Both the position numbers and the translations under genes were made by a program. A stretch of 64,000 nt of DNA from assembly GCF_003312875.1 (NCBI RefSeq), contig NZ_CP015163.1, positions 2,728,001-2,792,000 on the forward strand, in the 5' to 3' direction. Every line of letters starts with the position of its first letter. Position 1 is the stretch's first letter. Origin of the DNA: Amycolatopsis albispora (lineage in GTDB: Bacteria > Actinomycetota > Actinomycetes > Mycobacteriales > Pseudonocardiaceae). Below the pieces are notes generated by a model that made no database searches, was not told the DNA's origin, and was given only the letters and a program-made list of their open reading frames with translations. Shown piece after piece: positions 1,663 to 38,464 of the stretch.

Positions 1663-1902
1663 CTACTGCTGCTCGACTTCCTTTTTCTTCTTGGTGTCCC
1701 GAGTGATGTGCAACAGGAACGAGCCGACCAGGATCATGCCGATATTGGCCGCGATACGCGCGCCCGTGGCGTCGAAAATGTAGTGCATCAGGTACCAGCC
1801 GTGGTAATCCGGATGCACCGCTCCCTGGATCAGGCCACCGATCCCCTGGATCACGCACAGGAGTCCGAGTACTCCCACGGTGAACCTCAAGCTACCTTTC
1901 AC
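1663..1902 (-). CDS. Small two-helix membrane protein, last gene of the lanthipeptide operon
   Basis: A 79-residue protein with a hydrophobic N-terminal helix (about residues 6-28) and a second helix (about 48-66), ending in a Lys/Glu-rich tail (KKKKEVEQQ). It starts at GTG preceded by AAGGGGGA and lies 34 bases behind the glycosyltransferase gene on the same strand, so it is likely the promoter-distal gene of the operon. I do not recognise a family. A role in immunity or export is possible from position alone; nothing in the sequence shows it. Confidence 0.7.
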   Translation of the reverse strand: MKGSLRFTVGVLGLLCVIQGIGGLIQGAVHPDYHGWYLMHYIFDATGARIAANIGMILVGSFLLHITRDTKKKKEVEQQ

Positions 1903-1936
1903 AAGTCCCCCTTAGCCACCCGCAGTGATCAAATGA

Positions 1937-3292
1937 CTACTGTTTTGCCACCTTAGCACGGTGCGGCCGGGCGGTCAGCAGCGTGTCGCGGTGCGCGAGA
2001 AGGTGTTCCAGCACGGCCACCGCGCGCTCGGCGCCGTTCTCCGCGGAAACCCTGGTGGCCAGTTCCCGCGCCCTGGCGGAAATGGACTCGTCACCGACCG
2101 CCGTCCGGATCGCGGCGGCCAAATTCGCCGGATTCAGATCGCGGTTGCGAATCGGCGGCGGCGCGACACCGGCGCGATGCGCGTGCACCGCCCACATCAA
2201 CTGTTCATTGTGGACAGGGCAGGCGATCTGCGGAATTCCGATGCGCAGGGCCTCGTTGATCACGCCCACCCCGGCCGCGTGCACCACCGCGCGCACCCTG
2301 GCGAACAGCCACCAGTAGGGAATGTCGTCGGTGACCAGCACGTCCTGGGGCGGGTCGTCGATCTCCAGGCTGCCGGAAGCCCGGATCACCACCGCGCGCA
2401 TGCCGACCCGCCGGATCGCCTCCAGCACCAGCTGGCCCGCGTGCCGGGGATCGATTCCCCGCACCGTGCCGAAACTGACGCACAGCGGCGTTTCCCCGGC
2501 TTCCAGGAACCGGAGCAGCTCACGGGGCGGGGTGAAGCCCTCGCGTGGCGGCACGTACCAGAACCCGGTGGTCGCCACCCACGGCGGCCAGTCCGGCGCC
2601 GGGGGCACGAGTTCGGGGCTGAAGCCGTGGAGCACCGGCACCGGGCCGCCGTCCGGGCGGCGCAGCCGGTTGTGCTGGCCGCGGCGGGCGGGCAGGCCCA
2701 GCACCTCGTCCCGCCACATGTCCACCGCCATCTTCCCGATCGGCCGCAGTACCCGCACCGGGAAGTGGCTCAGCCGCCGCACCACCCGCGGGAACTCGCG
2801 ATCCGACGGCAGGTACCGCGCCGGGTAGTGGGCCGAGGGCACGTAGTTCGGGAACAGGGTGGCCAGCACGGTCGGCACACCGAGCTTTTCGGCGACGTGG
2901 TGCCCCTGCTCGAACGGCAGTCCCTCGTAGGACTGGACGACCACGTCGGCGTCCGCCGGCGCCGCGGCCGAGATTTCCCGGAGTATGCCGGGAAAGCAGC
3001 GGATGAACTCCTTCGACAGCTTCGCCAGTGCCCGCTTGCGGACCGCACGGGTGGCCGCCTTGTTGTCCCCCTGGTTGCGCAGCCAGGTGGACAGGTCGGG
3101 ATCGTTGACGTAGAAGTCGAGCAGTTCCTGGTTGCGTGGCACGTAGTCCACGCCGTACTCCGCGGCGTGCTTGGCGAACCGCTCCGGAGCGGCGAGAACG
3201 GCTTCGTGCCCGGCCTGGTTCAGCGCGTGCGCCAGCGCCAGATAGGGCTGCACGTCACCTCGTGAGCCGTAGGCGTAGATCAGGGCTTTCAC
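1937..3292 (-). CDS. Glycosyltransferase, MGT/UGT-like (GT1 type), first copy
   Basis: A 451-residue glycosyltransferase of the two-Rossmann (GT-B) type. The N-terminus carries YGSRGDVQPYLALAHAL, typical of macrolide and sterol glucosyltransferase-like enzymes; the C-terminal donor-binding region has HAAGVGVINEAL followed by the acidic NEQ segment. Family members transfer a nucleotide-activated sugar to a small-molecule acceptor. The GTG start overlaps the stop of the peptidase gene by four bases (GTGA), so translation is coupled. It is clearly related to the second glycosyltransferase at 6340-7647. By context it may decorate the lanthipeptide or its acyl chain; sugar and acceptor are unknown. 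The open frame continues upstream of the GTG, but that part is antisense shadow of the peptidase gene. Confidence 0.9.
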   Translation of the reverse strand: MKALIYAYGSRGDVQPYLALAHALNQAGHEAVLAAPERFAKHAAEYGVDYVPRNQELLDFYVNDPDLSTWLRNQGDNKAATRAVRKRALAKLSKEFIRCFPGILREISAAAPADADVVVQSYEGLPFEQGHHVAEKLGVPTVLATLFPNYVPSAHYPARYLPSDREFPRVVRRLSHFPVRVLRPIGKMAVDMWRDEVLGLPARRGQHNRLRRPDGGPVPVLHGFSPELVPPAPDWPPWVATTGFWYVPPREGFTPPRELLRFLEAGETPLCVSFGTVRGIDPRHAGQLVLEAIRRVGMRAVVIRASGSLEIDDPPQDVLVTDDIPYWWLFARVRAVVHAAGVGVINEALRIGIPQIACPVHNEQLMWAVHAHRAGVAPPPIRNRDLNPANLAAAIRTAVGDESISARARELATRVSAENGAERAVAVLEHLLAHRDTLLTARPHRAKVAKQ

Positions 3293-5304
3293 TTCGTGTT
3301 GCTCCCCTCCGTCCCCGCTCCCCCTCCGCCGAGCCCGAGGCGGTCGGCGAAGAAGGACAGGCAGTCGGCGTTCAGTTCGATCTCCCGGCTGGCCGGACGG
3401 CGTCCGTGACCGGCGCCGAGCTCGCGGCGCAGCAGGAACGGCCCGCCGCGCGCCCGCGACAGCGCGGCGCACATCTTGTACGCGTGCACCGGCGACACCC
3501 TCGTGTCGGCGTCGAAAACGGTGAACAGCACCGCCGGGTATTCCGTGGTCTCCTCGACCCGGTGGTACGGCGAATAGGCACGCAGCCAGGCCAGCTGCTC
3601 CGGGTCGTCCGCGCGCCCGTACTCGCCCCGCCAGAGCCGCCCGAGCCCGAACCGCTCGTAGCGGACCATGTCCAGCAGCGGCGCCGAGCACACCGCGGCG
3701 GCGAACCGGCCGGGGATCTGCGTCAGCGCCGCCCCGACCAGCAGCCCGCCGTTGGACACCCCGAACAGGCCCAGCTGGCCCTCGGTGGTCCAGCCGCGCT
3801 CGACCAGCCAGTGCGCGGCCGCGTGGAAATCGTCGAAACTCCGCTGCTTGCGGTCGAGCCGGCCATCGTGGTGCCAGCTCCGGCCGTTCTCCCCACCGCC
3901 GCGGACCTGCGCGATGGCGTAGACCCCACCGGCCTGCACCCAGGCCAGCAGCGCCGGTGAGTACCCGGGGCGCTGGGACAGGCCGAAACCGCCGTAGCCG
4001 TAGAGAATGGCGGGCCGGGGCCCGGGTGCGCCGGCGGCCACGATGTGGAGGCGGACCTCGGTCCCGTCCGCGGAGCGGCAGGTTTCGTGCCAGGTGCGGA
4101 TCCGGGGGTCCGGGGTGTGGCGCTCCGGCGCGGCCCAGGCCGACACCGCGCCGGTGTGGCCGTCGTAGCGCAGCACGGTCGGCGGGGTGGTGTAGTCGGT
4201 GTAGGTGAAGAAAGCCTCGTCGGCCCGCCGCGGGCGGTCGGAGATGACCGGCACCGAACCGGCGCCGGGCAACCCGGCCCGGTGGACCGGTTCGCCGGTG
4301 CGCAGATCGTGGGCCACGACCTCGGCCACCGTCGCCAGCGAGCGGAACACCAGCAGCAGCGGCCGGGCCAGTTCCGGTGCGTCCAGCAGCCGGAAATCCT
4401 CCAGCACGGCTTCGGCGTCCTCGGGCAGCAACTCTTCCCAGTTCGGGGCATCCGCCGTCACCGTCCGGAGCAACCGGCCGCGTTCCGCGGTCTCGTCGGA
4501 CAGCAGGTACACCCGGCCCGCGCGGTCGATGGCGGTGCGCACGCGTCCGCCGAGCCCGCCGCGGATCAGGCGCGTCCCGGTCACCACGCCGTCCTCCGGC
4601 AGTTCGGCGATCCAGAGATCCCGGGACTGGGAGGGGCCACGGGAAGCGGTGACGAGCAGGCGTGTTCGGTGTGTGCTCAAGCCGTACGAGGCGTACCCGG
4701 ACAGGACCGTGGTGTCCGGACCCGGCTCCCCGATCCGGTGCAGCCGGACCTCGCGGGTCCCGGCTGGTTCGCCGTCGTGGACGTAGCAGAACGCGCGGCC
4801 GCCGGGCAACCAGGCGACCGGGGAGGTCCGGCACCGGCCGAACGGCCCGTCCACCACCTCGCCGGTGTCCACGTCCAGCACCCGCAGCGTGCCCAGTTCC
4901 GTGCCACCCAGGGAAATCTGGAACGCGAGCAGCCCGCCCTCCGGGGACGGCTGCCAGGCGTCGAGAGTGGCTCCGGGACCGAATTCCGCCGGATCCAGCA
5001 GCATCCGGGCACGGCCGCCGGGGCCGGTCACCCACACCACATCGTGTTCGTGCCCGCGGGGACGCCGGTCGGTGAAACATCGGTCACCGGCCCAGACCGG
5101 GATGCCGGCGGCCCCGGTGTCCGACAGCTCGGCCAGCCGGTCCGCGAACCCGCGCGGCCACCGAGCGCGGTGCCGTTCGAACCGCACGCGCTGTTCTTCC
5201 AGCCACGCCTGGGTTCCGGCCGAGCCGGTCCGTTCCAGCCAGCGGTGGGGATCCCGGTCCACCGGCGGCGCCGGGTCCCGGTGCGCTGCGCCCAGCTCGG
5301 TCAC
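3289..5304 (-). CDS. Prolyl oligopeptidase (S9 family), candidate lanthipeptide leader peptidase
   Basis: A 671-residue S9A-type serine peptidase: an N-terminal beta-propeller (about residues 60-420) and a C-terminal alpha/beta hydrolase domain. The catalytic triad is visible as Ser517 (GVSNGG), Asp600 (DTRVSP) and His633 (GAGHG). Prolyl oligopeptidases cut short peptides after proline, and S9 enzymes of this kind (FlaP, AplP) remove leaders in class III lanthipeptide pathways. Both precursor peptides nearby have a single Pro at position 20, directly before the Ser/Thr/Cys-rich core, which fits this job well. It overlaps the epimerase gene upstream and the glycosyltransferase gene downstream by four bases each. 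There is no obvious signal peptide, so processing would be cytoplasmic. The leader-peptidase role is inference from family and precursor sequence. Confidence 0.9.
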   Translation of the reverse strand: MTELGAAHRDPAPPVDRDPHRWLERTGSAGTQAWLEEQRVRFERHRARWPRGFADRLAELSDTGAAGIPVWAGDRCFTDRRPRGHEHDVVWVTGPGGRARMLLDPAEFGPGATLDAWQPSPEGGLLAFQISLGGTELGTLRVLDVDTGEVVDGPFGRCRTSPVAWLPGGRAFCYVHDGEPAGTREVRLHRIGEPGPDTTVLSGYASYGLSTHRTRLLVTASRGPSQSRDLWIAELPEDGVVTGTRLIRGGLGGRVRTAIDRAGRVYLLSDETAERGRLLRTVTADAPNWEELLPEDAEAVLEDFRLLDAPELARPLLLVFRSLATVAEVVAHDLRTGEPVHRAGLPGAGSVPVISDRPRRADEAFFTYTDYTTPPTVLRYDGHTGAVSAWAAPERHTPDPRIRTWHETCRSADGTEVRLHIVAAGAPGPRPAILYGYGGFGLSQRPGYSPALLAWVQAGGVYAIAQVRGGGENGRSWHHDGRLDRKQRSFDDFHAAAHWLVERGWTTEGQLGLFGVSNGGLLVGAALTQIPGRFAAAVCSAPLLDMVRYERFGLGRLWRGEYGRADDPEQLAWLRAYSPYHRVEETTEYPAVLFTVFDADTRVSPVHAYKMCAALSRARGGPFLLRRELGAGHGRRPASREIELNADCLSFFADRLGLGGGGAGTEGSNTK

Positions 5305-6323
5305 ACCCGGCCCGCCAGCCCGGACGTCGCCAGCTGCCGTTCCTGGTACCAGCGCACGGTTTCGGCGAGCCCCTCCCGCAGCGGGCGTGGCACGAAGGAG
5401 ATGACCTCGGTCATGCGGCCCACGTCCAGGCGCCGGGCCGAGGGACCGGCCGGCTTGTCCGGGCGCAGGTGGATGCGCTCCGGCTCACCGAGCATCTCCG
5501 CCAGCGTCCTGGCCAGCTCCACGATGGCCACCGACTCGGTGCTGCCGATGTTGAAGGTGCGGTACCGGTCCGCCGCCACCATCTCCAGGGTCGCGCGCAC
5601 CATGTCGGTCACGTAGACGAAGGAGCGGACCTGGCTGCCGTCACCCCAGATCTCGATCTCCTCGCCGGCCGCGATCCGCGCCAGCATGCTCGGGATCACC
5701 CGGTTGACCGGGCCGTGGAACCCGTCGCGCGGGCCGTACACGTTGGTCGGCCGGACCAGGAACACGTTCATCTCGAACTGCGCGCGGAACAGCTCGGCCA
5801 GCACCTCGCCGAACACCTTCGACAGGAAGTACCCGTTGGTCGAGTACCGCATGGTCCGCCGGAAGTCGTCCTCTTCGGTGATCGGGGCCGGGCTGTCGGT
5901 GCAGTAGATCTCGGCCGAGCTGATCAGCACCACGTCCCCGACTCCGCAGTCGCGCGCGCAGTTGAGCAGGTTGGAGGTGTACCGCAGGTTCAGGTCGAGA
6001 ATGCGCGCGGAGTTCTTCACCTTGAACTCGGAGTTGCCGTCCAGCGCGGCGCAGTGGAAAACCGCGTCCACCCGCGGCGCGCAGAACCGGAACGCGGCCC
6101 GCAGTTCGTTCTCGTCGAGCAGGTCCACCCGCAGCGGCCGCAGCCGCTCGGCGCCGGGCACCCGCCGCAACTGCTGGAGGCGCCCGAAACTGTCGTTCCG
6201 GTGCAGGCTCACCACTTCGGCGCCGGCGGCGAGCAGTTCCTCGGTGAAGTGCGAACCGAGGAACCCGAGCCCGCCGGTGACCACCACGGTCTTCCCGGCC
6301 CACTTCGCCATCACGTCGGTCAT
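5301..6323 (-). CDS. NAD-dependent epimerase/dehydratase, NDP-sugar type
   Basis: A 340-residue extended short-chain dehydrogenase. It has the Rossmann motif GGLGFLG (from Gly17) and the catalytic pair Tyr165xxxLys169 in GYFLSK, with the preceding Ser in LISSAEIY and the conserved RPTNVYGP segment. The family includes UDP-glucose 4-epimerase, GDP-mannose 4,6-dehydratase and dTDP-glucose 4,6-dehydratase; the exact reaction cannot be told from the sequence. It is flanked by two glycosyltransferase genes and couples to the peptidase gene through an ATGA overlap, so it probably prepares or tailors the sugar donor. No other deoxysugar genes are present, so the donor must come largely from primary metabolism or another locus. 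Confidence 0.85.
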   Translation of the reverse strand: MTDVMAKWAGKTVVVTGGLGFLGSHFTEELLAAGAEVVSLHRNDSFGRLQQLRRVPGAERLRPLRVDLLDENELRAAFRFCAPRVDAVFHCAALDGNSEFKVKNSARILDLNLRYTSNLLNCARDCGVGDVVLISSAEIYCTDSPAPITEEDDFRRTMRYSTNGYFLSKVFGEVLAELFRAQFEMNVFLVRPTNVYGPRDGFHGPVNRVIPSMLARIAAGEEIEIWGDGSQVRSFVYVTDMVRATLEMVAADRYRTFNIGSTESVAIVELARTLAEMLGEPERIHLRPDKPAGPSARRLDVGRMTEVISFVPRPLREGLAETVRWYQERQLATSGLAGRV

Positions 6324-6339: not shown

Positions 6340-7647
6340 TCACCGGACCGGCGCCGGTTCGCGCACCATCGACTCGAGTGCGCGCGCGGCCGTGCCGGCG
6401 CCGTCCTCCGCCTGGATCCGGCTGCCCAGCCGGCCGGCCGCGGCGGTCATGGCCTGGTCGCGGGTGGCCGCGCGCAGCGCCGCGGCCAGCCCGTCGGCGG
6501 TCAGGTCACGCTGCCGCACCGGTGCCGTCGCCACGCCCAGCTCGTGGACGCGGCGGCACCAGGCCTCCTGCTCGCTGGTGTGCGGGATCGGCACCTGCGG
6601 CACCCCGGCGGCCAGCGCGTCGTTGACCGTGCCGACACCGCCGCCGTGCACCACCGCGTCCATCCGCGGGAAGAGCCAGTCGTAGGGTGCTTCGTCGACC
6701 AGGAGCACGTCCGGGCCGAGCAGCGTGGCGTCGATGTTCTTGTCCCGCCGGACCACCGCCCGCACCCCGGCGCCGGCGACCGCGTCGCGGATGATCCGGC
6801 CGGTCTCGGCGGCGTCCCGGCTGAGCAGGCTGCCGAAGCCCACGAACACCGTCGGGGTGTCGCCGTCGAGGAACCCGGTCAGCTCCGCCGGGGGCGTCCA
6901 GTCACCGGCCGGGGGCAGCCGCCAGAACCCGGTGGTGTGCACTTCCCCGCGCCAGTCCGAGGCCGGCGGCACCACCAGGGGGCTGAAGCCGTGCAGGAAC
7001 GGGACCCGCTCGCCGGTGGGCGTCCGCATCCGGTTGTGGCGGCCGCGGCGCCGCGGCAGGCCGAGCGTGTTCTCCCGCCACTCGTCCACGATCCGGCGCC
7101 CCACCTGGAAGTTCCGCATCGGCAGGTAGCTCAGGCGGCAGAGCGGCTCGGGCAGGCGCATGCCGAAGGGCACCAGCTCGCTGGCGTAGTAGCGGGTGGG
7201 CACGCAGTTCGGCCACAGGGAGGTCATCACCAGCGGCACGCCGAGGTGCTCGGCGACGTGCTGGCCCAGTTCCCACTGGTAGTACCCGGCCACCACCAGA
7301 TCGGCGCCGCCCGCCGCGGCGGCCGAGGTGTCCTGCAGCATCTTCGGCAGCCGGGTGCGCAGCGTCCGCCGCAGCCGGGTGCTCGCCCGCCGCCCGCGCT
7401 TGCGGTAACCGGGATCGCCGCTGCCCTGGTACGCCATCGTGTACTGGACTTCCGGATCCTCCAGGTACATCCGGATGATCGCGTCGTCACGCGGGGCGAA
7501 CTCGACGCCGTACCCCGCGGCCAGGTCGGCGTACAGCGCCGGGGCGGACAGCACGGCGTGGTGACCGCGTGCGGCGAGGGCGTGCGCCAGTGCCAGGTAC
7601 GGCTGCACGTCACCGCGCGTGCCGTAGGTGTAGACGAGGACTCTCAT
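6340..7647 (-). CDS. Glycosyltransferase, MGT/UGT-like (GT1 type), second copy
   Basis: A 435-residue GT-B glycosyltransferase, similar along its length to the one at 1937-3292: both start with an RGDVQPYLALAHAL segment, share LPRRRGRHNRMR-like and LHGFSP segments, and have a donor-binding block (here HGGGVGTVNDAL). Two related enzymes in one operon suggest two sugars, or two positions, on the same product. It lies 16 bases upstream of the epimerase gene and 28 bases downstream of the P450 gene on the same strand. Acceptor and sugar are unknown. Confidence 0.9.
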   Translation of the reverse strand: MRVLVYTYGTRGDVQPYLALAHALAARGHHAVLSAPALYADLAAGYGVEFAPRDDAIIRMYLEDPEVQYTMAYQGSGDPGYRKRGRRASTRLRRTLRTRLPKMLQDTSAAAAGGADLVVAGYYQWELGQHVAEHLGVPLVMTSLWPNCVPTRYYASELVPFGMRLPEPLCRLSYLPMRNFQVGRRIVDEWRENTLGLPRRRGRHNRMRTPTGERVPFLHGFSPLVVPPASDWRGEVHTTGFWRLPPAGDWTPPAELTGFLDGDTPTVFVGFGSLLSRDAAETGRIIRDAVAGAGVRAVVRRDKNIDATLLGPDVLLVDEAPYDWLFPRMDAVVHGGGVGTVNDALAAGVPQVPIPHTSEQEAWCRRVHELGVATAPVRQRDLTADGLAAALRAATRDQAMTAAAGRLGSRIQAEDGAGTAARALESMVREPAPVR

Positions 7648-7675: not shown

Positions 7676-8887
7676 TCATGGCCGGCTGGAGGATCGGGCG
7701 CGGAAATCCACCGGCAGCGCGGCCAGCGCCAGCACCCCGCCCGCGGGATCGAAGTGCCGCAGGGGTTCGTCGGTCCGGACCGCGATGTCCTCGAAGCGGG
7801 CGGCCAGCTGCGCCAGCGCGCGCTGAGCCTCCAATTTGGACAGATGAACGCCGAGGCAGAAGTGGACCCCGCGGCCGAAGCTCAGATGCGGGTTGGGGTG
7901 GCGGTCCACCCGGAACTCCTCGGCGTCGGCGAACTTCCGCTCGTCGCGGTTGGCCGAGGTCAGCCAGGGCAGCACCACCTGCCCCGCCGGGACGCGGACC
8001 CCGCCGAGCTCGGTCTCGGCCGTGGTCCACCGGGCCACCCTGGCGAACGGCGGCCGGTACCTGGCCACCTCCTCCACCGCGGCGGGGATGAGCCCGGGGT
8101 CCTCGCGCAGCCGGTCGAGCAGGCCGGCCCGGCCGTCGAAGCACAGCACCGCGCTGGTGATCAGCGAGCAGGTGGTCATGTCCCCGCCGGTGAGCAGCAG
8201 GCGGAGAAAACCGATGAGTTCCTCGTCGGAGAGGCGGACACCGTGGATCTCGGCGTGGGCCAGCGCGGTGATCAGGTCGTCCCGCGGGTTCGCCCGGCGG
8301 TCCCGCACCTGCTCGGCGAAGTACTCGCGCATCTCGGCGAGCACCGAGCGCGCGACGTCGTGCTGCCCCTCGGCTTCGACGGCCTGCGTCCGCTGCTCGG
8401 ACAGCTGCGCGAAACTCCACCGCTTGAACAGCGGCACGTCCGCGCGCGGCAGCCCGAGCACATGGGCGATCACGCTGGCCGGGAGCCGGTAGGAGAACTC
8501 GTCGACGAAGTCGATGCCGGTGTCGCCGGACAGGTTGTCCAGCAATCCGGTGATGATGGTGTCGATCTCGTCCCGCAGCTCGGTGATGGCGCGCGCGGTG
8601 AACCGCTTGCTCACCAGCCCGCGCAGCTCGGTGTGCCGGGGCGGGTCGGTCAGGGCCAGGTTGCCCTCGATGAGGTCGTCGTTGACCGAGACCTCGCGGG
8701 GGAACTCGCTGGAGAAGATCTTGCGGTCGGTGAAGACCCGTTCGGCCTCCTCGAAGGAAAAGACATGCCAGGCGCCGGAACCGGCGTCGAAGATCACCGG
8801 CTCGGTGGCCCGCTGGTAGGTGCCCCAGTCATACAGCGCCCGCACCGCGTCCAGTCCGGTGTCCGCGCTCAAGATCGACTCTGCCAT
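7676..8887 (-). CDS. Cytochrome P450
   Basis: A 403-residue soluble bacterial P450. The heme-binding loop FGRGVHFCLG carries ligand Cys344, the I-helix oxygen-activation motif is TGGDMTT (residues 233-239), and the K-helix ExxR is in EEVARYRPP (about 273-276). No ferredoxin or reductase gene lies in the cluster, so electrons must come from elsewhere. It follows the two precursor genes after a strong hairpin and precedes the glycosyltransferase genes, so hydroxylation of the peptide or acyl chain, perhaps creating a glycosylation handle, is a reasonable guess. Confidence 0.92.
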   Translation of the reverse strand: MAESILSADTGLDAVRALYDWGTYQRATEPVIFDAGSGAWHVFSFEEAERVFTDRKIFSSEFPREVSVNDDLIEGNLALTDPPRHTELRGLVSKRFTARAITELRDEIDTIITGLLDNLSGDTGIDFVDEFSYRLPASVIAHVLGLPRADVPLFKRWSFAQLSEQRTQAVEAEGQHDVARSVLAEMREYFAEQVRDRRANPRDDLITALAHAEIHGVRLSDEELIGFLRLLLTGGDMTTCSLITSAVLCFDGRAGLLDRLREDPGLIPAAVEEVARYRPPFARVARWTTAETELGGVRVPAGQVVLPWLTSANRDERKFADAEEFRVDRHPNPHLSFGRGVHFCLGVHLSKLEAQRALAQLAARFEDIAVRTDEPLRHFDPAGGVLALAALPVDFRARSSSRP

Positions 8888-8980: not shown

Positions 8981-9116
8981 AATCACCTCAGCAGGTGATC
9001 GAGCCGGTCGAGGACGGCAGGTCGCTCTCCTCCACCTCGATGACGAGGGTCTGCAGGTCGCGGACGTTCTCCATGGTTTTCACCTCCCTGTTGGACTGGT
9101 TCTTCCTACTTCGAGC
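8981..9116. repeat. Tandem duplication carrying lanA, copy 1
   Basis: This 136-bp stretch matches 9148-9283 with seven mismatches (about 95%) at an offset of 167 bp. The unit spans the whole precursor gene, its ribosome binding site and, in copy 2, the last codons of lanKC. Because only copy 2 overlaps the lanKC stop, copy 2 is probably the original position and copy 1 the duplicate. Confidence 0.9.
8988..9074 (-). CDS. lanA1: Class III lanthipeptide precursor peptide, copy 1
   Basis: A 28-residue peptide starting MENVRDLQ and ending SSTGSITC. The leader holds the DLQ-type recognition motif of class III lanthipeptides (residues 3-8, NVRDLQ) and an acidic stretch, and ends in Leu-Pro20. Residues 21-28 form the predicted core: Ser22-x2-Ser25-x2-Cys28 fits a bridged avionin/labionin-type ring, and the Cys is the last residue, as needed for a LanD-type decarboxylase. 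GGAGG lies eight bases before the ATG. It sits just downstream of lanKC and lanA2 on the same strand. It is too short for usual gene callers. Its peptide is identical to copy 2; the coding DNA differs by one silent change at Val11. Confidence 0.9.
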   Translation of the reverse strand: MENVRDLQTLVIEVEESDLPSSTGSITC

Positions 9117-9149: not shown

Positions 9150-9283
9150 TCAGCTCAGCAGGTGATCGAGCCGGTCGAGGACGGCAGGTCGCTCTCCTCC
9201 ACCTCGATCACGAGGGTCTGCAGGTCGCGGACGTTCTCCATGGTTTTCACCTCCTTGTTGAACTAGTTCTCCCTACTTCAAGC
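9148..9283. repeat. Tandem duplication carrying lanA, copy 2
   Basis: Second copy of the 136-bp unit at 8981-9116. Its right end includes the lanKC stop codon region, which copy 1 has lost (TCG instead of TCA on the plus strand), showing the direction of the duplication. Confidence 0.9.
9155..9241 (-). CDS. lanA2: Class III lanthipeptide precursor peptide, copy 2
   Basis: A 28-residue precursor identical in sequence to the product of the neighbouring copy: leader with NVRDLQ recognition segment, single Pro at residue 20, core SSTGSITC. AGGAGGTG precedes the ATG by about eight bases. It starts 36 bases after the lanKC stop, so it can be read from the lanKC transcript. Two identical copies suggest a dosage effect rather than a two-component product, since both would give the same core. 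Confidence 0.9.
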   Translation of the reverse strand: MENVRDLQTLVIEVEESDLPSSTGSITC

Positions 9284-29468: not shown

Positions 29469-29473
29469 ACCAG

Positions 29474-29731: not shown

Positions 29732-29818
29732 GCCCGGCGGCACCGGTGCCGCCCGGCCGGAAAACGGCGCGGGCGGCGCGGAAGAACGACCAACGCCATT
29801 TGACCGGAAGGCGGCTTC

Positions 29819-30529: not shown

Positions 30530-30566
30530 GCACGCGCGTCGGCGCGTATTACCAGAAAGAGCCGGT

Positions 30567-31529
30567 GTGAACTCCACTCTACCCGCGATCGTGGCCACGG
30601 GGCTGCGCAAGCGCTATCGCGAAACCGTCGCGCTCGACGGGTTCGACCTGTCCGTGACCAGGGGCACCGTGTGCGGTCTTCTCGGCCCCAACGGGGCAGG
30701 CAAAACCACCGCGGTGCGGATCCTGGCCACCCTGCTCCGCCTGGACAGCGGTTCGGCCAGCGTGGCCGGGTTCGACGTCGGCCGCGAGCCGGAACAGGTC
30801 CGCTACCGCATCGGGTTGTGCGGCCAGCACTCGGCCGTGGACAACATCCTGACCGGGCGGGACAACCTGGTGATGTTCGGCAGGCTCTGCCACCTCAGCC
30901 CGAAGGCCGCCCGGCGCCGCGCGGACGAACTGCTCGAGCAGTTCGGTCTCACCCACGTGGCCACGCTGCCGCCCAAGCAGTACTCCGGCGGCATGCGGCG
31001 GCGGCTGGACCTGGCCGCGAGCCTGCTCGTCACCCCGGAGGTGCTGTTCCTCGACGAGCCGACCACCGGCCTGGACCCGCGCAACCGCAACGAGGTCTGG
31101 GCCGAGATCCGCGCGGTCGCCGCCTCCGGCGGCACCGTGCTGCTGACCACCCAGTACCTCGACGAGGCCGACCAGCTCGCCGGGCAGATCGCGGTGATGA
31201 ACGGCGGCCGGGTCGTCGCCGAGGGCAGCCCCAGCGAGCTCAAGGCCAGGATCGACGAGGACCAGGTGGATCTGGTCCTGCGCGACCCCGGCGACCTGCC
31301 GCGGGCGCGGGAACTGCTCGAACTGGTCACCGGCGGTACCGCGGTGGCCGACCCGGAAGCGCGGCGGCTGCGGGCGCCGGTGCGGGACGGGGCATACGGA
31401 CTGGCCGAAGCGGCCAGGGCACTGGCCGGAGCCGGGATCGCGGTGGAGGACATCGGCCTGCGGCGGCCGACCCTCGACGAGGTGTTCCTCCGGCTGACCG
31501 AGAAACGCGCCGAGGAGCTGGCACGGTGA
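30567..31529 (+). CDS. ABC exporter ATPase, DrrA-like
   Basis: A 320-residue ATP-binding subunit with Walker A GPNGAGKTT (about residues 40-48), Q-loop, signature YSGGMRRRLDLA, Walker B VLFLDEPTTGLD and the H-loop region, plus a C-terminal extension of about 90 residues seen in daunorubicin-resistance-type (DrrA) exporters. It pairs with the permease gene that overlaps its end by four bases. It likely powers export of the finished product and so self-protection. The GTG start is at 30567. Confidence 0.93.
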   Translation: MNSTLPAIVATGLRKRYRETVALDGFDLSVTRGTVCGLLGPNGAGKTTAVRILATLLRLDSGSASVAGFDVGREPEQVRYRIGLCGQHSAVDNILTGRDNLVMFGRLCHLSPKAARRRADELLEQFGLTHVATLPPKQYSGGMRRRLDLAASLLVTPEVLFLDEPTTGLDPRNRNEVWAEIRAVAASGGTVLLTTQYLDEADQLAGQIAVMNGGRVVAEGSPSELKARIDEDQVDLVLRDPGDLPRARELLELVTGGTAVADPEARRLRAPVRDGAYGLAEAARALAGAGIAVEDIGLRRPTLDEVFLRLTEKRAEELAR

Positions 31530-32356
31530 CCACGATCAACATGGCGGTACTGCCGAAGAATCGTGCCGACCGGCTGCGCTGGGCGGTGGTGGACTCACTG
31601 GTCATCGCCCGGCGCGACCTGACGCACTGGATCCGCCGCCCGACCCAGGTGGTGGGCGGAATGCTGTTCCCGGCGTTCTCGATCCTGCTGTTCGGTTACG
31701 TGTTCGGCAGTTCGATCATCATTCCCGGCGGCGGCGACTACCGCGAATTCCTCATGCCCGGCCTGTTCGGCCAGACCATGATGTTCGGCATCGGCCAGAC
31801 GATGACCGCGGTCACCACCGACGCCGACCGCGGGGTCACCGACCGGTTCCGCTCGCTGCCGATGTCGAAAACCGCGGTGGTGGCCGGGCGGAGCATCGCC
31901 GACATCGCGAACTCGTCGCTGGACCTGCTCATCCTGATGGCCTGCGGGCTGATCGTCGGCTGGACCTGGCACGGCAGCTTCGGGGCGGCGCTGGCCGGGG
32001 CCGGGCTGCTGCTCCTGCTGCGGTTCGGGGTGATCTGGGTGGGCATCTACATCGGACTGGTGCTGCCCAGCCCGGAAAGCGTGTCCTCGGCGTGGATGCT
32101 GCTGTTCCCGTTCACCATGATCGCGAACACCTTCGTGCTGCCGTCCAGCATGCCGGACTGGCTCCGGGTGCTGGCCGAGTGGAACCCGCTGTCGGCGACG
32201 GTGGGCGCGACCCGTGAACTGTTCGGCAATCCCGGCGTGGCCGGGGATTCCTGGGTGAGCCAGCACTACCTGCTGATGGCGGTGGTGTGGCCGGTGCTGC
32301 TGGTGGCGATCTTCCTGCCGCTGTCGATCCGGCGCTACCGCCGCCTGAGCAACTGA
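31526..32356 (+). CDS. ABC-2 type permease, DrrB-like
   Basis: A 276-residue membrane protein with six predicted helices and the ABC-2 signature region (SPESVSSAWMLLFPFTMIANTFVLPSSMPDWLRVLAEWNPLSATVGATREL). It is the membrane partner of the preceding DrrA-like ATPase. The GTG start overlaps the ATPase stop (GTGA). Substrate is unknown, presumably the lipidated lanthipeptide of this locus. Confidence 0.93.
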   Translation: MTTINMAVLPKNRADRLRWAVVDSLVIARRDLTHWIRRPTQVVGGMLFPAFSILLFGYVFGSSIIIPGGGDYREFLMPGLFGQTMMFGIGQTMTAVTTDADRGVTDRFRSLPMSKTAVVAGRSIADIANSSLDLLILMACGLIVGWTWHGSFGAALAGAGLLLLLRFGVIWVGIYIGLVLPSPESVSSAWMLLFPFTMIANTFVLPSSMPDWLRVLAEWNPLSATVGATRELFGNPGVAGDSWVSQHYLLMAVVWPVLLVAIFLPLSIRRYRRLSN

Positions 32357-32391
32357 CCGGCGCACCGCACCACGGCACTATGATCGGCGGC

Positions 32392-33270
32392 ATGGACGAC
32401 GAGCTGGCCGGGCCCGACGAGAAGTGGACCTTCGACCTCCGCGAGGTCCGGATCATTCCCGCGCCGGACGGCGACCTGCACGAGCTGCGGCGCGCGCTGG
32501 GCCCGGTCAGCGTCCCGCTGGCGGCGCTGACCGGGATCAGCTTCGAACCGGGCCGCCGCAGCTGCCGCCTGCGCCTGCAACTGCGTGCCGGGGCCGATCC
32601 GCTGACCCAGGTGTCCAGCGACTGGCTCACCGGCCGGGCCGATCCGTACCAGCTCACCGTGGAAGCCGAGCGCTCCGCGGCGGCCGAGTACTTCGCCGGC
32701 CGGGTCCGCGACGCGCTGCTCGTCGAGCAGGTGCCCGAGGGGCCGGCCGAGCAGTACCTGATGCCGGGGCCGCGGGTGCCGGTGACCGCCGCCGCCGGGG
32801 ACGGCACGGTGGTCTTCGACGGCGAGCGGCTCCGCTTCGAGTGGAACTGGCTGGCCGACGACCGCAAGCGCGCGATGGGGCCGCAGCAACTGCGGCTGGC
32901 CGACGTGGCGGCGGTCGAGTGGCAGCCGGTGGTCGGGCTCGACCACGGCTTTCTCCGGTTCCGGCCGCGCGGGATGAGCACTCCCCCGCCGATCGAGCAC
33001 GACCCCTACAGCCTGCACTGGGGAATCAAGCGGGAGGGTGGCACGGCGGTGCTGGTCGCCGCCGCGGTCGCGGCCCGGCTCCCGCACCCGTCGGAGACCA
33101 CCGCGGAACCACTGGCGCTCCCCGCGGCGGCACCGGCACCGGCCGGCGAGGTCCACGAAGCCGACGCGCTGCTGCACCGGCTGCGCGAACTCGGGGCCCT
33201 GCACCGGGACGGCATCCTCACCGACGACGAATTCGCCGCGGCGAAACAACTCCTGCTCAAACCGCGCTGA
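32392..33270 (+). CDS. DUF4429-like protein with C-terminal SHOCT motif
   Basis: A 292-residue soluble protein with two similar beta-rich halves (about residues 10-115 and 120-225), a Pro/Ala-rich linker and a C-terminal short helix-turn segment, LHRLRELGALHRDGILTDDEFAAAKQLLL, which is a SHOCT motif. Proteins of this layout are common in actinomycetes; their function is unknown to me. It follows the permease gene by 35 bases but may be housekeeping rather than pathway-related. An alternative ATG lies four codons upstream at 32380. Confidence 0.8.
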   Translation: MDDELAGPDEKWTFDLREVRIIPAPDGDLHELRRALGPVSVPLAALTGISFEPGRRSCRLRLQLRAGADPLTQVSSDWLTGRADPYQLTVEAERSAAAEYFAGRVRDALLVEQVPEGPAEQYLMPGPRVPVTAAAGDGTVVFDGERLRFEWNWLADDRKRAMGPQQLRLADVAAVEWQPVVGLDHGFLRFRPRGMSTPPPIEHDPYSLHWGIKREGGTAVLVAAAVAARLPHPSETTAEPLALPAAAPAPAGEVHEADALLHRLRELGALHRDGILTDDEFAAAKQLLLKPR

Positions 33271-34163: not shown

Positions 34164-35015
34164 TCAGCGCCAGTGGTGGAAACCGCGCCCGGTCTTGCGG
34201 CCGAGGTGCCCGGCGGCGATCAGCTCGAGCAGCCGCTCGTCCGGGGTGAACCGGGGCTCCCCGGTGCATTCGGCCAGCACGCCCAGGGTGTCGGCGACGG
34301 TGTCCAGGCCGATCAGGTCCGCCGTGCGCAGCGGTCCCAGCTGGTGTCCCAGGCACTGCTGGAAAAGCCGGTCCACCGTGGCCGCGTCCGCGGTTCCGGC
34401 GCCCACCACGGCGGCGGCCTCGTTGATGGCGGGCATCAGCACCCGGTTGAGCGCGAATCCGGGCCCGTCGGCGACCACGATCCCGGTTTTGCCCAGTGCC
34501 GCCAGCAGGTCCCCGGCCGCGCGGAGGGTGTCCGGCCCGGTGCGCGGACCGCGGACCAGTTCCACGGTCTCCTTCATCGGCGCCGGGTTCATGAAGTGCA
34601 GGCCGACCACCCCGGCCGGGCGCCGGGTGCACGCGGCCAGCCGGTCGATGGGGATCGCCGAGGTGACCGAGGCGAGCACCGCCCCGGCCGGGCAGCACCG
34701 GTCCAGTTCCGCGAAAACCGCTTCCTTGAGCGGAATCCGTTCCGGGGCGCACTCGAGCACAAAGCCGGTCCCGGCCAGGTCCTCGAACCGGCCGGTCCAG
34801 CGGACCCGGCCCGTCACCGTGGACACCGGCGCGGCGGCGGGATCGCGGCGCACCAGCCGGATCCGCCGGAGTTCCTCGGCCAGGCGCACCGGCGCGGTGC
34901 CGAGCGCCTCCGGCACCGGGTCCACGACCACCACCGGAAACCCGGCCTCGGCCAGGCAGTGCGTGACGCCCAGGCCCATCGTCCCGGCGCCGACCACACC
35001 GATCTGCTGTCTCAT
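34164..35015 (-). CDS. 3-hydroxyacyl-CoA dehydrogenase-like protein (FkbK-like)
   Basis: A 283-residue dehydrogenase with GAGTMG (9-14) for NAD binding, the catalytic His140 in GLHFMNPAPMKETVEL and a C-terminal helical domain ending GRGFHHW. In methoxymalonyl-ACP pathways (FkbK, AsmP-type) this enzyme oxidises the 3-hydroxyl of glyceryl-ACP. It is the last gene of a five-gene minus-strand operon with an FkbH-like HAD, an acyl-CoA dehydrogenase and an ACP; the ATG overlaps the FkbH-like stop by four bases. The O-methyltransferase (FkbG) is absent. Confidence 0.88.
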   Translation of the reverse strand: MRQQIGVVGAGTMGLGVTHCLAEAGFPVVVVDPVPEALGTAPVRLAEELRRIRLVRRDPAAAPVSTVTGRVRWTGRFEDLAGTGFVLECAPERIPLKEAVFAELDRCCPAGAVLASVTSAIPIDRLAACTRRPAGVVGLHFMNPAPMKETVELVRGPRTGPDTLRAAGDLLAALGKTGIVVADGPGFALNRVLMPAINEAAAVVGAGTADAATVDRLFQQCLGHQLGPLRTADLIGLDTVADTLGVLAECTGEPRFTPDERLLELIAAGHLGRKTGRGFHHWR

Positions 35016-36076
35016 GAGCGCTCTCCCGGGTTCGGCGGACCGGCGACCACCCGGACCGGATGGGCTCGCGGTCGCGGCGGGCGGGCCGGGTCGACGGACA
35101 GGCGGAGCCGGTCCGCGGTGCCGCCGTCCACCGCGTAGCCCGCGAACCGCAGGGTCACCAGCATGATCCGGTTGACCGGGGTGGGCACGAACTCGGCCAC
35201 CGGCCGCCTGCCGGCGGCCAGCGCGGTGCGCACCAGGTGGTCCAGCAGGGCGGCACCGGCCCCGCGGGAGAGCACCCGGCAGGACATCAGCAGCAGTTCG
35301 AGGACCGACTCGTCGGCGGTCACCGCGTTGACGGCGAGGCCGACGGTGCCGTAGGAGCCGAGGCGGTCCACCAGATCGGCGACCAGCACCTCGTGATCGG
35401 GTGAGCCGCACAACGCACGCAGCCTGCCGAGTCCCAGCGTGCGCCCGGTGGTGTTGAGCTGATGCGTGCGCACGGTCAGTTCGTGCGCCCTGGCCAGATC
35501 CCGTTCGGTGGCGGGCCGGACGGTGAGCACGAGATCCAGCGTGGTGAGGAACTCCGCGGCCGGGCCCGGGTACTCCTGTTCGGCGGCCCGCCGCAGCCGG
35601 TCGGCGCGGTAGAGCTGCCGCCGGCCACGGGCTTCCTCGGTGATGACGCCCGGGGTGAACTCCGGCCGCCCGGGCAGCCCGGCCACCGCGCCTGCCGGGA
35701 AGCAGCGCACGGCGGGCAGCGCGGCGGCCACCTCCGCCCGCTCGAATTCGTCGTTGTCCACCAAGGCGACGGTGTCCAGGCCGATCCCCAGTTCGGCGGC
35801 GATTTCCCGGATCGCCGCCGACTTGGCGCCCCAGCCGATCCGGACGGCGCTGAACAGCTCGTCGAGCCCGTGGCGGGCGAGGTGGGCTTCGACGGGCGCC
35901 GGGACCGAGCGGCTGGCCACCGCGTGCAGAATGCCGCGCCGGTCCAGCGCACGCAGGGTGGCCACCGCGGCCGGGAACGGCGGCGGCTCGTCGCCTTCCA
36001 GCACCACACCGTCCCACACCGTGTCGTCGAGATCCCAGACCAGGCACTTCACCGGCGGCGGGCCGGGCCGGCTCAT
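35012..36076 (-). CDS. FkbH-like HAD protein: glyceryl-ACP formation
   Basis: A 354-residue protein of the FkbH family: N-terminal HAD phosphatase-like domain with DLDDT (Asp15, Asp17) and the later VDNDEFERAE metal site, plus a C-terminal GNAT-like domain (about 190-330). FkbH enzymes take 1,3-bisphosphoglycerate, remove phosphate and load glycerate on a dedicated ACP. The small ACP at 37197-37439 is the likely partner. Start and stop overlap their neighbours by four bases (ATGA). Confidence 0.92.
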   Translation of the reverse strand: MSRPGPPPVKCLVWDLDDTVWDGVVLEGDEPPPFPAAVATLRALDRRGILHAVASRSVPAPVEAHLARHGLDELFSAVRIGWGAKSAAIREIAAELGIGLDTVALVDNDEFERAEVAAALPAVRCFPAGAVAGLPGRPEFTPGVITEEARGRRQLYRADRLRRAAEQEYPGPAAEFLTTLDLVLTVRPATERDLARAHELTVRTHQLNTTGRTLGLGRLRALCGSPDHEVLVADLVDRLGSYGTVGLAVNAVTADESVLELLLMSCRVLSRGAGAALLDHLVRTALAAGRRPVAEFVPTPVNRIMLVTLRFAGYAVDGGTADRLRLSVDPARPPRPRAHPVRVVAGPPNPGERS

Positions 36077-37209
36077 CGGGCGCCCGCCGTGGAATATCCG
36101 TGGCGCCGCAACAGGTCCTCGGCCACGGTCAGCTCGCACACCTGCGCGGAGCCCTCGATGATCTCCATCACCTTGGCATCGCGGAAGAACCGGCCGGGAC
36201 GGCTCTCCGGGGCGCAGCCGGCCGCGCCGAGCACCTGCACCGCGGAACCGGCGACCTCGGCCGCCGCCCGCGCCGCGGCGTACTTGGCCGCCACGGTGCC
36301 GACCACCGCTTCCGGGTCACCGGCGGCACGCAGCCGCGCCGCCCGCCGGCACAGTTCCCTGGCGGCCGCGGTGTCCACCGCGGCCCGGCCCAGCAGCCCG
36401 CGGACGACCTGGTGCTCGGCCAGGGAAACCCCGCCCTGACGGCGGTTCACCACGTGCCCGGTGGCCTCCCGCAAGCAGGCCTCGGCCATGCCGACACAGC
36501 CCCAGCCCACGGTGAACCGCCCGTGGTCCAAAGCCGTGGCCACCACGTGCGAGAGCCCGAAACCCGGTGGCGCCACCAGGTTCTCCGCCGGCACCGAGAC
36601 CGCGTCGAACCGCAGGTGGGCCAGCTGGGCCGCGCGCATCCCGAGCTGGCCGGTCACCGGTTCGCGCCACACCCCGGGGCGGTCGGCCTCCACCAGCACC
36701 GTGGTGTGCTCCCCGTCGACCAGGCCGGAAACCAGGAACACGTCGGCGACCTGCCCGAAGGTGACCCACCGCTTGCGGCCGGTCAGCTCGAATCCCGTGC
36801 CTGCCCGGCTGATCGTGGTCGTGGCCACGGCCAGGTCGGTACCGGCGCCCTCCTCGGTCACCGCGAATCCGGCGATCCGGGTGCCGCGGGCCAGCGCGGG
36901 CAGCCACCGGTCGCGCTGGGCGGGGGTGCCCCAGCGCAGCAGCGCCGCCGAAACCATGCCCTGCACCGTGACCAGGCCGCGCAGCGCGCTGCACACGCCG
37001 CCGAGGTGGGCACACAGCTCACCGAGCGCGGCCGCCCCGGCGTCGAGACCACCGTGCGCGCGCGGCAGATCGGCGCCGAGCAGCCCGTTCGCGCCCAGTG
37101 CCCGCGCCATCTCCGCCGGGAGCGCACCGCGCCGGTCCCAGCCCGTGGCCTCCTCGCGCACGGCCGCGGCGAAGTCGGCGCCCAGGGCTTCCACGCTCAG
37201 CACGCGCAC
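36073..37209 (-). CDS. Acyl-CoA dehydrogenase-like protein (FkbI-like)
   Basis: A 378-residue flavoprotein of the acyl-CoA dehydrogenase family (FAEEGAGTDLA-type FAD/substrate segment FAVTEEGAGTDLA, and the C-terminal EIIEGSAQV). In hydroxymalonyl/methoxymalonyl-ACP pathways the FkbI-type member oxidises the three-carbon ACP-bound aldehyde to the carboxylate. It lies between the ACP and FkbH-like genes, as in fkb/asm-type cassettes. The GTG start at 37209 overlaps the ACP stop by 13 bases; GTG 37203 or 37194 are alternatives. Confidence 0.87.
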   Translation of the reverse strand: MRVLSVEALGADFAAAVREEATGWDRRGALPAEMARALGANGLLGADLPRAHGGLDAGAAALGELCAHLGGVCSALRGLVTVQGMVSAALLRWGTPAQRDRWLPALARGTRIAGFAVTEEGAGTDLAVATTTISRAGTGFELTGRKRWVTFGQVADVFLVSGLVDGEHTTVLVEADRPGVWREPVTGQLGMRAAQLAHLRFDAVSVPAENLVAPPGFGLSHVVATALDHGRFTVGWGCVGMAEACLREATGHVVNRRQGGVSLAEHQVVRGLLGRAAVDTAAARELCRRAARLRAAGDPEAVVGTVAAKYAAARAAAEVAGSAVQVLGAAGCAPESRPGRFFRDAKVMEIIEGSAQVCELTVAEDLLRRHGYSTAGAR

Positions 37210-37439
37210 TTGGCCACGACAAAGGCGGCCAGCCTGCTGACCGTGCGGAAATTGTCACGATCGAGGTCATCGACCTCGACGGTGAACGCGTAGCCGCGTT
37301 CGACGAACGCGATCAGTTCGATCGCGAAAAGCGAATTGACCAAACCGAGTTCGAAGTAGTCCTCGTCGTCGCCGACAGTTGTGCCGAGTGACCGGGTGAC
37401 GAACTCCCGGATCTCACGGGCGACCGCCGTCACTTCCAT
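37197..37439 (-). CDS. Acyl carrier protein of the three-carbon unit (FkbJ-like)
   Basis: An 80-residue carrier protein with Ser36 in GLVNSLFAIEL. The Asn-Ser-Leu instead of the common Asp-Ser-Leu is typical of ACPs that carry glyceryl or methoxymalonyl units. Its gene is in one operon with the FkbH-, FkbI- and FkbK-like genes and follows the KAS III-like gene by 38 bases. It should carry glycerate and its oxidation products up to hydroxymalonate. Confidence 0.92.
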   Translation of the reverse strand: MEVTAVAREIREFVTRSLGTTVGDDEDYFELGLVNSLFAIELIAFVERGYAFTVEVDDLDRDNFRTVSRLAAFVVAKCAC

Positions 37440-37477
37440 CGCACATCCCCCATGGGCTCGCCGCGCGGGTGGTTTTG

Positions 37478-38464
37478 TCAGAGCAGGTCGTCCCCGGCGC
37501 CCGTGCCGAGGAGCACCAGGCTCCACGCGGCGGCGGGGCTGGCGTTCAGCAGCACCGCGTACTTGCCATCCCCCAGCCCGCCGCGGCCGATTTCGGCCCA
37601 CAGGTTGAGCAGGACGTCGTTGGCGCCGAGATGACCGAGGGTCCGCAGGTGCTCCCGGCACACCGGGCTGAGCTCGGCCTCCAGTACCTCCTCGGCGAAC
37701 CGGAAGGCGGCCGCGGACAGGTTGTGGCTGAGGTAGCAGGCGACCTCGTCCGGCCGCAACCCGTTGCGGTCGAACAGTCGCCGGCGCAGTTCCCGCAGCC
37801 GGTTGCGGGTCTCCACGGCCAGGCCGAAGGAGTAGTCCGGGAGGTCCCGGCACTCTTCGCGCCAGTCCCGGACCGGCCGGTCCCGGTAGTCCACCCGGAA
37901 CAGGTCCCAATGCCTGCCGTTGCTCTCCTGCAGGATGTCCAGCACCGAAACCGGTCCGTGCCGGGCGAGCACCACGGCGCCGCCGCCGTCCCCGTTCACC
38001 GTGACCGGATGCCGGTACCGCGCCGGGGTGGCCGGCTTGCTGCCGTGCACCACGAGCACCTCGCCCAGTTCCGGGTCCGCCGCCAGCAGGCCGCGGGCCG
38101 CCAGCAGCGCCGGGGTGACCGAGACGCAGCCGAGCCCGCCCACCGAGAAGGTCAGCGCGCGGTGCGCGCCGAACTCGGCCTGCAGCCGGGTCGCCTCCGA
38201 AGCCAGCAGGGCGGCCGGGGCGCGTGGCTCCACCACGATCAGCGCGCCGAGTTCCGCCGCGTCCAGCCCGGCTCCGGCCAGCGCCCGGCGACCGGCCTCG
38301 GCGGCGAGGTCGAACGCGGTGAGCCCGTCGTCGGCCCGGATCTCGTCGATGCCCAGGTTCGCCAGGTTTTCCCGTCCGGCGGGGGTCAGCTCCGCGACCT
38401 CCGGCAACTCGGCGACCTTGGCCGTGGCGGCGGGGTGGAAGAAAGCGGCGGTGCGTACCGCCAT
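37478..38464 (-). CDS. KAS III-like ketoacyl synthase or acyltransferase
   Basis: A 328-residue thiolase-fold protein of the KAS III type. The triad looks intact: Cys113 (GGLGCVSV), His247 (LSHNLS) and Asn282. KAS III-like enzymes start fatty acid chains, join acyl groups to ACP-bound units, or make esters. As the first gene of the hydroxymalonyl-ACP operon it may condense an acyl-ACP with the three-carbon unit; in tetronate pathways a KAS III-like enzyme uses glyceryl-ACP. ATG at 38464 is chosen because the family-like sequence begins there; an upstream GTG is possible. Confidence 0.85.
   Translation of the reverse strand: MAVRTAAFFHPAATAKVAELPEVAELTPAGRENLANLGIDEIRADDGLTAFDLAAEAGRRALAGAGLDAAELGALIVVEPRAPAALLASEATRLQAEFGAHRALTFSVGGLGCVSVTPALLAARGLLAADPELGEVLVVHGSKPATPARYRHPVTVNGDGGGAVVLARHGPVSVLDILQESNGRHWDLFRVDYRDRPVRDWREECRDLPDYSFGLAVETRNRLRELRRRLFDRNGLRPDEVACYLSHNLSAAAFRFAEEVLEAELSPVCREHLRTLGHLGANDVLLNLWAEIGRGGLGDGKYAVLLNASPAAAWSLVLLGTGAGDDLL

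Follow-up and report, generated by a model that had tools for sequence, protein, structure and literature searches.

Gene content and extent of the locus

The window analysed here is a stretch of 64,000 nucleotides of the Amycolatopsis albispora genome (positions 2728001-2792000 of one contig of 9,121,443 bases), and it carries a lipolanthine-type gene cluster built around a class III lanthipeptide synthetase (LanKC), two short precursor genes (LanA) and a type I polyketide synthase (PKS). The window proteins were identified by gene calls and by Pfam and NCBIfam profile matches. Genes overlooked by the caller, which were the FabF-like ketosynthase (KS) in the window and the KS, the LanD and the thiamine diphosphate (ThDP) enzyme in Actinosynnema mirum, were picked out by eye in the reading frames and then confirmed by tblastn. 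The features are listed below.

1592-1645, no strand: 24-nt inverted repeat, probable bidirectional terminator between a nonribosomal peptide synthetase (NRPS) unit (plus) and the lipolanthine unit (minus); left boundary
1663-1878, minus: 71-aa small hydrophobic protein, no Pfam family; 48% homologue at the matching place in A. mirum
1937-3292, minus: glycosyltransferase GT1 (GT28-N/EryCIII-C by Pfam); relatives in A. mirum, Saccharomonospora and Amycolatopsis NPDC059657
3289-5304, minus: prolyl oligopeptidase (POP, S9), proposed leader peptidase (Pfam; A. mirum and Streptomyces loci)
5301-6323, minus: extended short-chain dehydrogenase/reductase (SDR) of the nucleoside diphosphate (NDP)-sugar epimerase/dehydratase family (Pfam); relatives near EryCIII-type GTs
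6340-7647, minus: glycosyltransferase GT2, paralogue of GT1 (Pfam, A. mirum)
7676-8887, minus: cytochrome P450 (Pfam) with haem-ligand Cys (by eye)
8988-9074, minus: precursor LanA copy 1, 28 aa, core SSTGSITC (gene call)
9155-9241, minus: precursor LanA copy 2, identical 28-aa peptide (gene call)
9278-11887, minus: LanKC class III synthetase (Pfam, NCBIfam, tree)
12032-12685, minus: LanD flavin cysteine decarboxylase (Pfam Flavoprotein, PDB match)
12682-13254, minus: MaoC-like dehydratase (Pfam)
13265-14038, minus: SDR, enoyl-ACP-reductase-like (Pfam; ACP, acyl carrier protein)
14035-14739, minus: SDR, ketoreductase-like (Pfam)
14727-20219, minus: type I PKS, ACP-KS-AT-DH-KR-ACP (Pfam, motifs by eye)
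20265-20879, minus: GNAT, proposed acyl-to-peptide transferase (Pfam, genome searches)
21400-21906, plus: HTH_21 protein, IS3-type N-terminal part or regulator; homologue at the matching place in A. mirum
22018-23433, plus: AMP-binding acyl ligase (Pfam)
23457-24719, plus: FabF-like KS, start picked by eye (frames, Pfam)
24776-26047, plus: aldehyde-dehydrogenase family enzyme, ALDH (Pfam)
26044-27723, plus: ThDP enzyme, acetolactate-synthase family (Pfam)
27726-29468, plus: fatty-acid-AMP ligase, FAAL (Pfam, NCBIfam)
29465-29731, plus: ACP (Pfam)
29819-30529, plus: SfLAP membrane protein (Pfam); at the opposite cluster end in A. mirum
30591-32356, plus: ABC exporter (ATPase 30591-31529, membrane part 31541-32356); Saccharomonospora-group matches of 53-54% for the ATPase and 28% for the membrane part
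32380-33270, plus: DUF4429 protein, membership less sure; 28-32% relatives in five more distant lipolanthine-type loci
34164-38464, minus: hydroxymalonyl-type cassette, not in the cluster and assigned to the neighbouring NRPS cluster; HBDH 34164-35015, FkbH-like 35012-36052, acyl-CoA dehydrogenase 36073-37209, ACP 37197-37439, ketosynthase III (KSIII) 37478-38464

The genes form two divergent runs, one from 20879 down to 1663 on the minus strand and one from 21400 to 33270 on the plus strand. At the left edge the inverted repeat stands between two convergent units, and the right edge, at 33270, is again a point of convergence. The lipolanthine-type cluster spans about 1663-33270, not 1663-38464, and probably directs the biosynthesis of a glycosylated lipolanthine. 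All the genes named by a first-pass annotation of this DNA were found (LanKC, the LanD-type enzyme, Cys-ended precursors, PKS, GNAT, FAAL, exporter, two GTs, the NDP-sugar-type SDR and the P450, and also, as genes with Pfam matches, the hydroxymalonyl-type cassette, the ThDP enzyme and the ALDH). Its list had not included the POP, the FabF-like KS, the second AMP-binding enzyme, MaoC, two SDRs and SfLAP.

Conservation of the cluster in related genomes

In A. mirum (G125:C1 about 5760000-5790000) the same genes as at 1663-29731 are kept in the same order: the 71-aa protein, GT1, POP, SDR, GT2, P450, two precursors, LanKC, LanD, MaoC, two SDRs, PKS and GNAT, and after GNAT the HTH_21 protein, AMP ligase, KS, ALDH, ThDP enzyme, FAAL and ACP. 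The identities to the window are 68% for GT1, 46% for POP, 63-64% for SDR, 70% for GT2 and 60% for the P450, and both precursors carry the core ASTGSITC after DLP. The A. mirum locus differs in having SfLAP at the other cluster end, in the lack of a clear counterpart of the ABC exporter and of DUF4429 in the 80 kb searched, and in the lack of a hydroxymalonyl cassette or a window-type NRPS within the same 80 kb. Since its GNAT is split into two matches, a frameshift or a sequence error is possible there. No product of the A. mirum locus was found in the open-access literature searched. In Amycolatopsis sp. NPDC059657 the GNAT (75%), P450 (67%) and GT1 (74%) each lie on a contig of 262,902 bases, and because of this common length the strain probably has the cluster too. 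In Streptomyces glaucosporus, contigs of 476,643 bases likewise carry a GNAT (52%) and a P450 (43%).

For the wider comparison, we labelled loci as lipolanthine-type by the presence of GNAT, LanKC and Cys-ended precursors near one another. GNAT matches occurred in 18 of 390 family genomes, the window genome included; six of the 18 (G210, G211, G282, G373, G376, G378) were seen at the short search locus only. An order-wide GNAT-profile scan of 397 genomes gave matches in seven, six of them from the window's family (window included), and among plasmids 47 records matched, all below 60% identity and the 20 listed at about 27-35%. A table of 24 other lipolanthine-type loci was compiled from 18 of 76 GNAT loci (15 with LanKC within reach, and L096, L099 and L108 on broken contigs) and six genomes (G125, G069, G278, G372, G212, G208), five loci found in both collections being merged. 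The other 58 GNAT loci (e.g. Brevibacillus, Actinomadura, Clostridia), none of which had a LanKC within reach, were left out; L137-L170 were mostly weak matches, and further analysis covered the loci up to L139. Absences in many table rows are weak, because only 10 kb were seen on each side, and the rows are not all independent, the LanKCs of Crossiella/G212 and of S. neyagawaensis/S. torulosus being near-identical. Outside the table, L139 has a precursor-like open reading frame but no LanKC, and the Bacillota loci L106, L109, L110, L111, L115, L124 and L126 combine a GNAT relative with SDR, AMP ligase, ALDH and ThDP matches and no LanKC match.

The FabF-like KS was present in all 24 loci (one partial; two below 40% identity), the AMP ligase in 23 (three over about half length) and the FAAL, at 43% identity or more, in nine. 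The first-pass annotation had considered that the LanKC/LanA part and the PKS/FAAL part might be two separate clusters; in the near relatives the opposite was seen, with LanKC, GNAT, KS, PKS and FAAL found in one place in Actinosynnema, in Saccharomonospora and in several Streptomyces. More distant lipolanthine-type loci were without FAAL and without this PKS in the stretch examined.

LanKC and the precursor peptides

The LanKC reached 951 bits with the NCBIfam class III model (NF038151, cut-off 575). A tree of 53 rows was made, comprising the window, 23 lipolanthine-type LanKCs and 29 from genomes of the window's genus. The window LanKC fell in a group of seven with a support of 100/100, whose other members come from lipolanthine-type loci of A. 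mirum, of the Saccharomonospora group (two) and of Streptomyces (three), and the 29 class III LanKCs of its own genus made up a separate 100/100 group. Its identity was at most 47% to these 29 and 38-63% to the 23 lipolanthine-type rows.

Both precursor genes encode MENVRDLQTLVIEVEESDLPSSTGSITC, the copies differing at one of 87 nt, and their ribosome sites are AAGGAGGTG and AGGGAGGTG. The core SSTGSITC has Ser at positions 2 and 5 and Cys at position 8, which is the avionin spacing X-S-X2-S-X2-C, and Ser-X2-Ser-Xn-Cys is thus present at the C-terminus of both copies. The published passages on nocaviogua give Ala1-Avi2-Val3-Ser4-Avi5-Asn/Asp6-Gly7-Avi8 (PMC10435860), equal to the window in the length of the core, eight residues, and in its spacing. 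The predicted mass of the free-amine avionin peptide of SSTGSITC is 672.290 Da, against 656.295 Da for that of A. mirum. Together with the syntenic A. mirum locus and the grouping of the LanKC, the avionin-spaced core supports the assignment to the lipolanthines that had been made at first pass. The cluster might instead be silent or decayed, with no product; no product is known, and an HTH_21 fragment lies between the two divergent runs. However, the reading frames of the called genes are open, the KS, AT, DH, KR and P450 motifs look intact by eye, and the precursors are duplicated with good ribosome sites, so that we regard decay as the least probable of the explanations weighed here.

The LanD-type flavoprotein scored 49 bits with Pfam Flavoprotein (cut-off 22.7) and had cypemycin decarboxylase as its best PDB match, and the NCBIfam CypD model gave 79 bits, below its own cut-off of 215. 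A LanD scan of the genome contigs confirmed none of 46 candidate stretches as relatives. In Saccharomonospora NB11 (L062/L063) and Kutzneria 744 (L068/L069) tblastn found no LanD in 40 kb, yet their precursors are Cys-ended. A related metagenome-assembled genome (MAG) has a 36% LanD match far left of the cluster (L177:2684-3172), so that the LanD may lie out of reach, or the match may be a CoaC-like relative. One Saccharomonospora precursor (joined L062+L063, 27988-28074) ends in ...NSTASVNCG, one residue past the Cys.

The sole Pro of the leader stands at -1 (...DLP/SSTGSITC), and we propose from this position that the in-cluster POP cuts the leader after it. The S. neyagawaensis locus contains a POP plus precursors with ELP/TSSASTNC, and S. 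prasinopilosus has both POP and P450. In all, the POP was found in four of the 24 loci, and that of Streptoalloteichus (33%) adjoins a second LanKC. According to the passages seen of PMC10885120, the microvionin leader is removed by the M1 proteases MicP1/MicP2, encoded outside the cluster, whereas flavipeptin has a POP encoded in its class III cluster, FlaP, which cuts after Pro(-12). An in-cluster POP acting at Pro(-1) is therefore a distinct proposal.

The hydroxymalonyl-type cassette and the neighbouring NRPS

At first pass 1663-38464 had been taken as one continuous set of genes. This holds up to 33270 but not for 34164-38464, since KSIII, FkbH and acyl-CoA dehydrogenase occurred in none of the 24 other lipolanthine-type loci and the cassette stands beside NRPS homologues in relatives. 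The KSIII matched in 46 of 390 family genomes (window genome included), and this list overlaps with that of the GNAT (18/390) in the window genome and G069 only, in G069 on different contigs. Directly beside KSIII, and in its orientation, 17 of the 19 relatives with a retrieved locus (probe source included) have a stretch homologous to the C-terminal part of the G176 NRPS, and in G176, G246 and G406 the NRPS is followed on the same strand by KSIII and the cassette. An NRPS lies left of the window, from -11247 to 1578, where the gene ends. It is 53-55% identical to the NRPS of G176, G246 and G406 and 39% to that of G225, and it is without the terminal carrier-condensation part known in relatives, the best genome match being 33%.

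As judged from these comparisons, the cassette belongs with the NRPS cluster left of the window, and the lipolanthine locus appears to sit between the NRPS and its usual partner cassette, the orientation of which is now reversed. The split may have come about by an insertion or by a rearrangement: a clean pre-insertion site is not demonstrable because the nearest NRPS relatives are no closer than stated above, and since in G225 the NRPS homologue and the cassette are divergent, an inversion in the window is only a possibility.

The cassette does lie next to the cluster and contain an HBDH, an FkbH-like protein, an acyl-CoA dehydrogenase and an ACP, so that 1663-38464 could be thought of as one pathway in which a hydroxymalonyl-ACP extender serves the lipolanthine PKS and gives a hydroxylated chain. 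The lipolanthine PKS comes with an AT domain of its own, however, and with the absence from all 24 loci, the separate genome lists and the association with the NRPS, we rejected a single pathway including the cassette as very unlikely. This sorting of the genes prevents a wrong structure prediction, since no hydroxymalonate unit is then expected in the chain.

Proposed genes for the acyl chain

The PKS motifs were read by eye: VDTACSGS in the KS, GHSMG and VASH in the AT, HxxxGxxxxP in the DH, and the KR motifs. The VASH motif is presumably closer to the methylmalonyl than to the malonyl type. The enoyl reductase-like SDR and MaoC are partners in trans, and we propose an iterative-type PKS assisted by such trans enzymes. 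Fatty acid synthase/PKS genes and a GNAT acyltransferase, the combination that marks lipolanthine clusters, both lie in the cluster. The ALDH was found in 17 of the 24 loci and the ThDP enzyme in 13; since both occur in 12, the pair is ordinary. By eye, the ThDP enzyme, in A. mirum as well, has GDQ at the usual place of the activating Glu, and the ALDH is without the usual Glu of ELGG.

The glycosyltransferase and P450 block

From its position and conservation, the run GT1-POP-NDP-sugar SDR-GT2-P450 is judged part of the lipolanthine cluster, and a glycosylated lipolanthine is therefore predicted. GT1 was found in three of the 24 loci, in the cluster in A. mirum and Saccharomonospora sp. NB11, where it comes after the precursors, and on a separate contig in the MAG DX1.bin91; a GT is thus conserved with lipolanthine genes in other genera. 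The 43% matches of GT2 in two Saccharomonospora-group loci are the same gene as their GT1 match, and the GT stretches of two Streptomyces and Streptoalloteichus contain no other cluster gene. We take the GT/SDR/P450 block to be accessory but co-inherited. Of the chemistry described as added at first pass, the GT, NDP-sugar and P450 genes stand, while the ThDP/ALDH pair is common in the family and the hydroxymalonyl cassette falls to the neighbouring NRPS-type cluster.

Of 398 relatives, 10 had an SDR match at E <= 1e-80. In all five of these whose loci were retrieved, besides A. mirum, an EryCIII-type GT was adjacent to it (four) or within 3 kb (one). Its NCBIfam scores were all below cut-off and no reaction was assigned. 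The best solved relatives of GT2 are sterol glucosyltransferases and GtfA/B/D, which fit a lipid or a peptide acceptor and decide nothing. A role of the P450 as a haem-less GT helper was ruled out, the haem Cys being present by eye.

Two other uses of these genes were weighed. GT1, SDR, GT2 and P450 might make a separate metabolite and only sit in the cluster, and they are indeed rare among lipolanthine-type loci; but together with POP, precursors and LanKC they form a single run on one strand, with an order shared by two genera, and in Saccharomonospora sp. NB11 the precursors are followed by GT1, so we give this reading hardly more credence than decay. The GTs and the SDR could also serve self-protection, the peptide being glycosylated to an inactive form inside the cell and freed outside, with a mature product that is sugar-free. 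Both GTs match antibiotic-inactivating Rgt/MGT models weakly, below cut-off, and GT2 also the OleI self-immunity model. There is, however, no glycosidase among the Pfam matches of 1663-33270, and two GTs with a dedicated sugar SDR exceed the needs of inactivation, which makes self-protection unlikely, if less so than a separate metabolite.

Proposed pathway

The steps, their order, the product, the sugar and its attachment site are predicted here from the genes. LanKC would phosphorylate and eliminate Ser2 and Ser5 of the core, LanD would oxidatively decarboxylate the C-terminal Cys, and the enethiol and the two dehydroalanine residues would close to the avionin ring. A cut after Pro(-1) by the POP would expose the eight-residue core. 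The starter could come from the ThDP/ALDH/AMP-ligase/KS set or be loaded by FAAL-ACP; the PKS would extend it iteratively with the trans MaoC/SDR enzymes, and the GNAT would attach the resulting acyl chain at the N-terminus of the peptide. The P450 may hydroxylate, most likely, the acyl chain, GT1 and GT2 would add one or two sugars from an NDP donor modified by the SDR, and the ABC/SfLAP proteins would export the product. A more specific version, which in our judgement might equally hold or fail, is a family of glycosylated lipolanthines in Amycolatopsis and Actinosynnema with a P450-hydroxylated polyketide tail, on which the two GTs build a disaccharide from the donor of the dedicated SDR, and with a POP that frees the eight-residue core in one cut at Pro(-1).

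Several points count against a glycosylated lipolanthine or its details. We know of no compound from the window locus or from any syntenic locus. The 23 lipolanthine-type LanKCs as a whole do not form one group (two changes on the tree), so that membership is argued from the seven-row group. The GNAT is a putative counterpart of GdvG, judged by context. Pro(-1) precursors also occur in loci of Saccharomonospora, Kutzneria and Amycolatopsis jejuensis whose retrieved stretches showed no POP; the link is thus not exclusive and the proposal is weakened. One of the 24 other loci had the SDR and a GT2 separate from GT1, and two matched the P450 along the greater part of its length (a partial 29% match in one more); for their rarity SDR, GT2 and P450 are regarded as accessory. 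Relatives of GT2 and P450 are present in nine and six of 18 lipolanthine-type genomes, mostly away from the cluster. The cluster contains no complete deoxysugar pathway.

Comparison with known systems

Goadvionin, described by Kozakai in 2020, is reportedly a polyketide joined to a peptide by an acyltransferase; for it and for the lipoavitides we know of no GT, NDP-sugar SDR or in-cluster POP, and for NAI-112 of no acyl chain. If the prediction is true, the product would be the first lipopeptide known to us in which a ribosomal avionin ring is combined with both a polyketide tail and sugars. By their published descriptions, microvionin, nocavionin and nocaviogua share with the window, where these traits are predicted, a class III LanKC, a LanD-type decarboxylase, a C-terminal Cys and an N-acylated avionin peptide; the published passages mention no sugar for them, whereas the window locus has GT genes. 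NAI-112 is a glycosylated class III lanthipeptide, as is predicted here, and AplG glycosylates its Trp according to the passages seen (PMC12328550), but its rings are labionins, with the sugar on Trp, and the window core has no Trp.

No glycosylated lipolanthine was found in the literature searched, which was open-access only, so that one could be described in a subscription paper. Microvionin and other lipolanthines are active against methicillin-resistant Staphylococcus aureus and pneumococci, and only 12 lipolanthines were known in 2023, as stated in the part seen of PMC10435860. If true, a branch that bears sugars and has a sugar enzyme, a P450 and a leader peptidase of its own would be an added chemical handle, and the locus offers paired GTs and a POP for study on a minimal 28-residue precursor.

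Other genes at the locus and its relatives

The HTH_21 protein belongs to an IS3-like family, and because its place is conserved in A. mirum it is perhaps a regulator and not insertion-sequence debris. The Pfam family of SfLAP is named for the sulfolipid-1-addressing protein, and it had matches in six of the 24 lipolanthine-type loci (31-56%). The S. neyagawaensis locus also carries a GH5 cellulase-family gene (L202:9300-10433) and a PhyH dioxygenase (L202:13802-14722).

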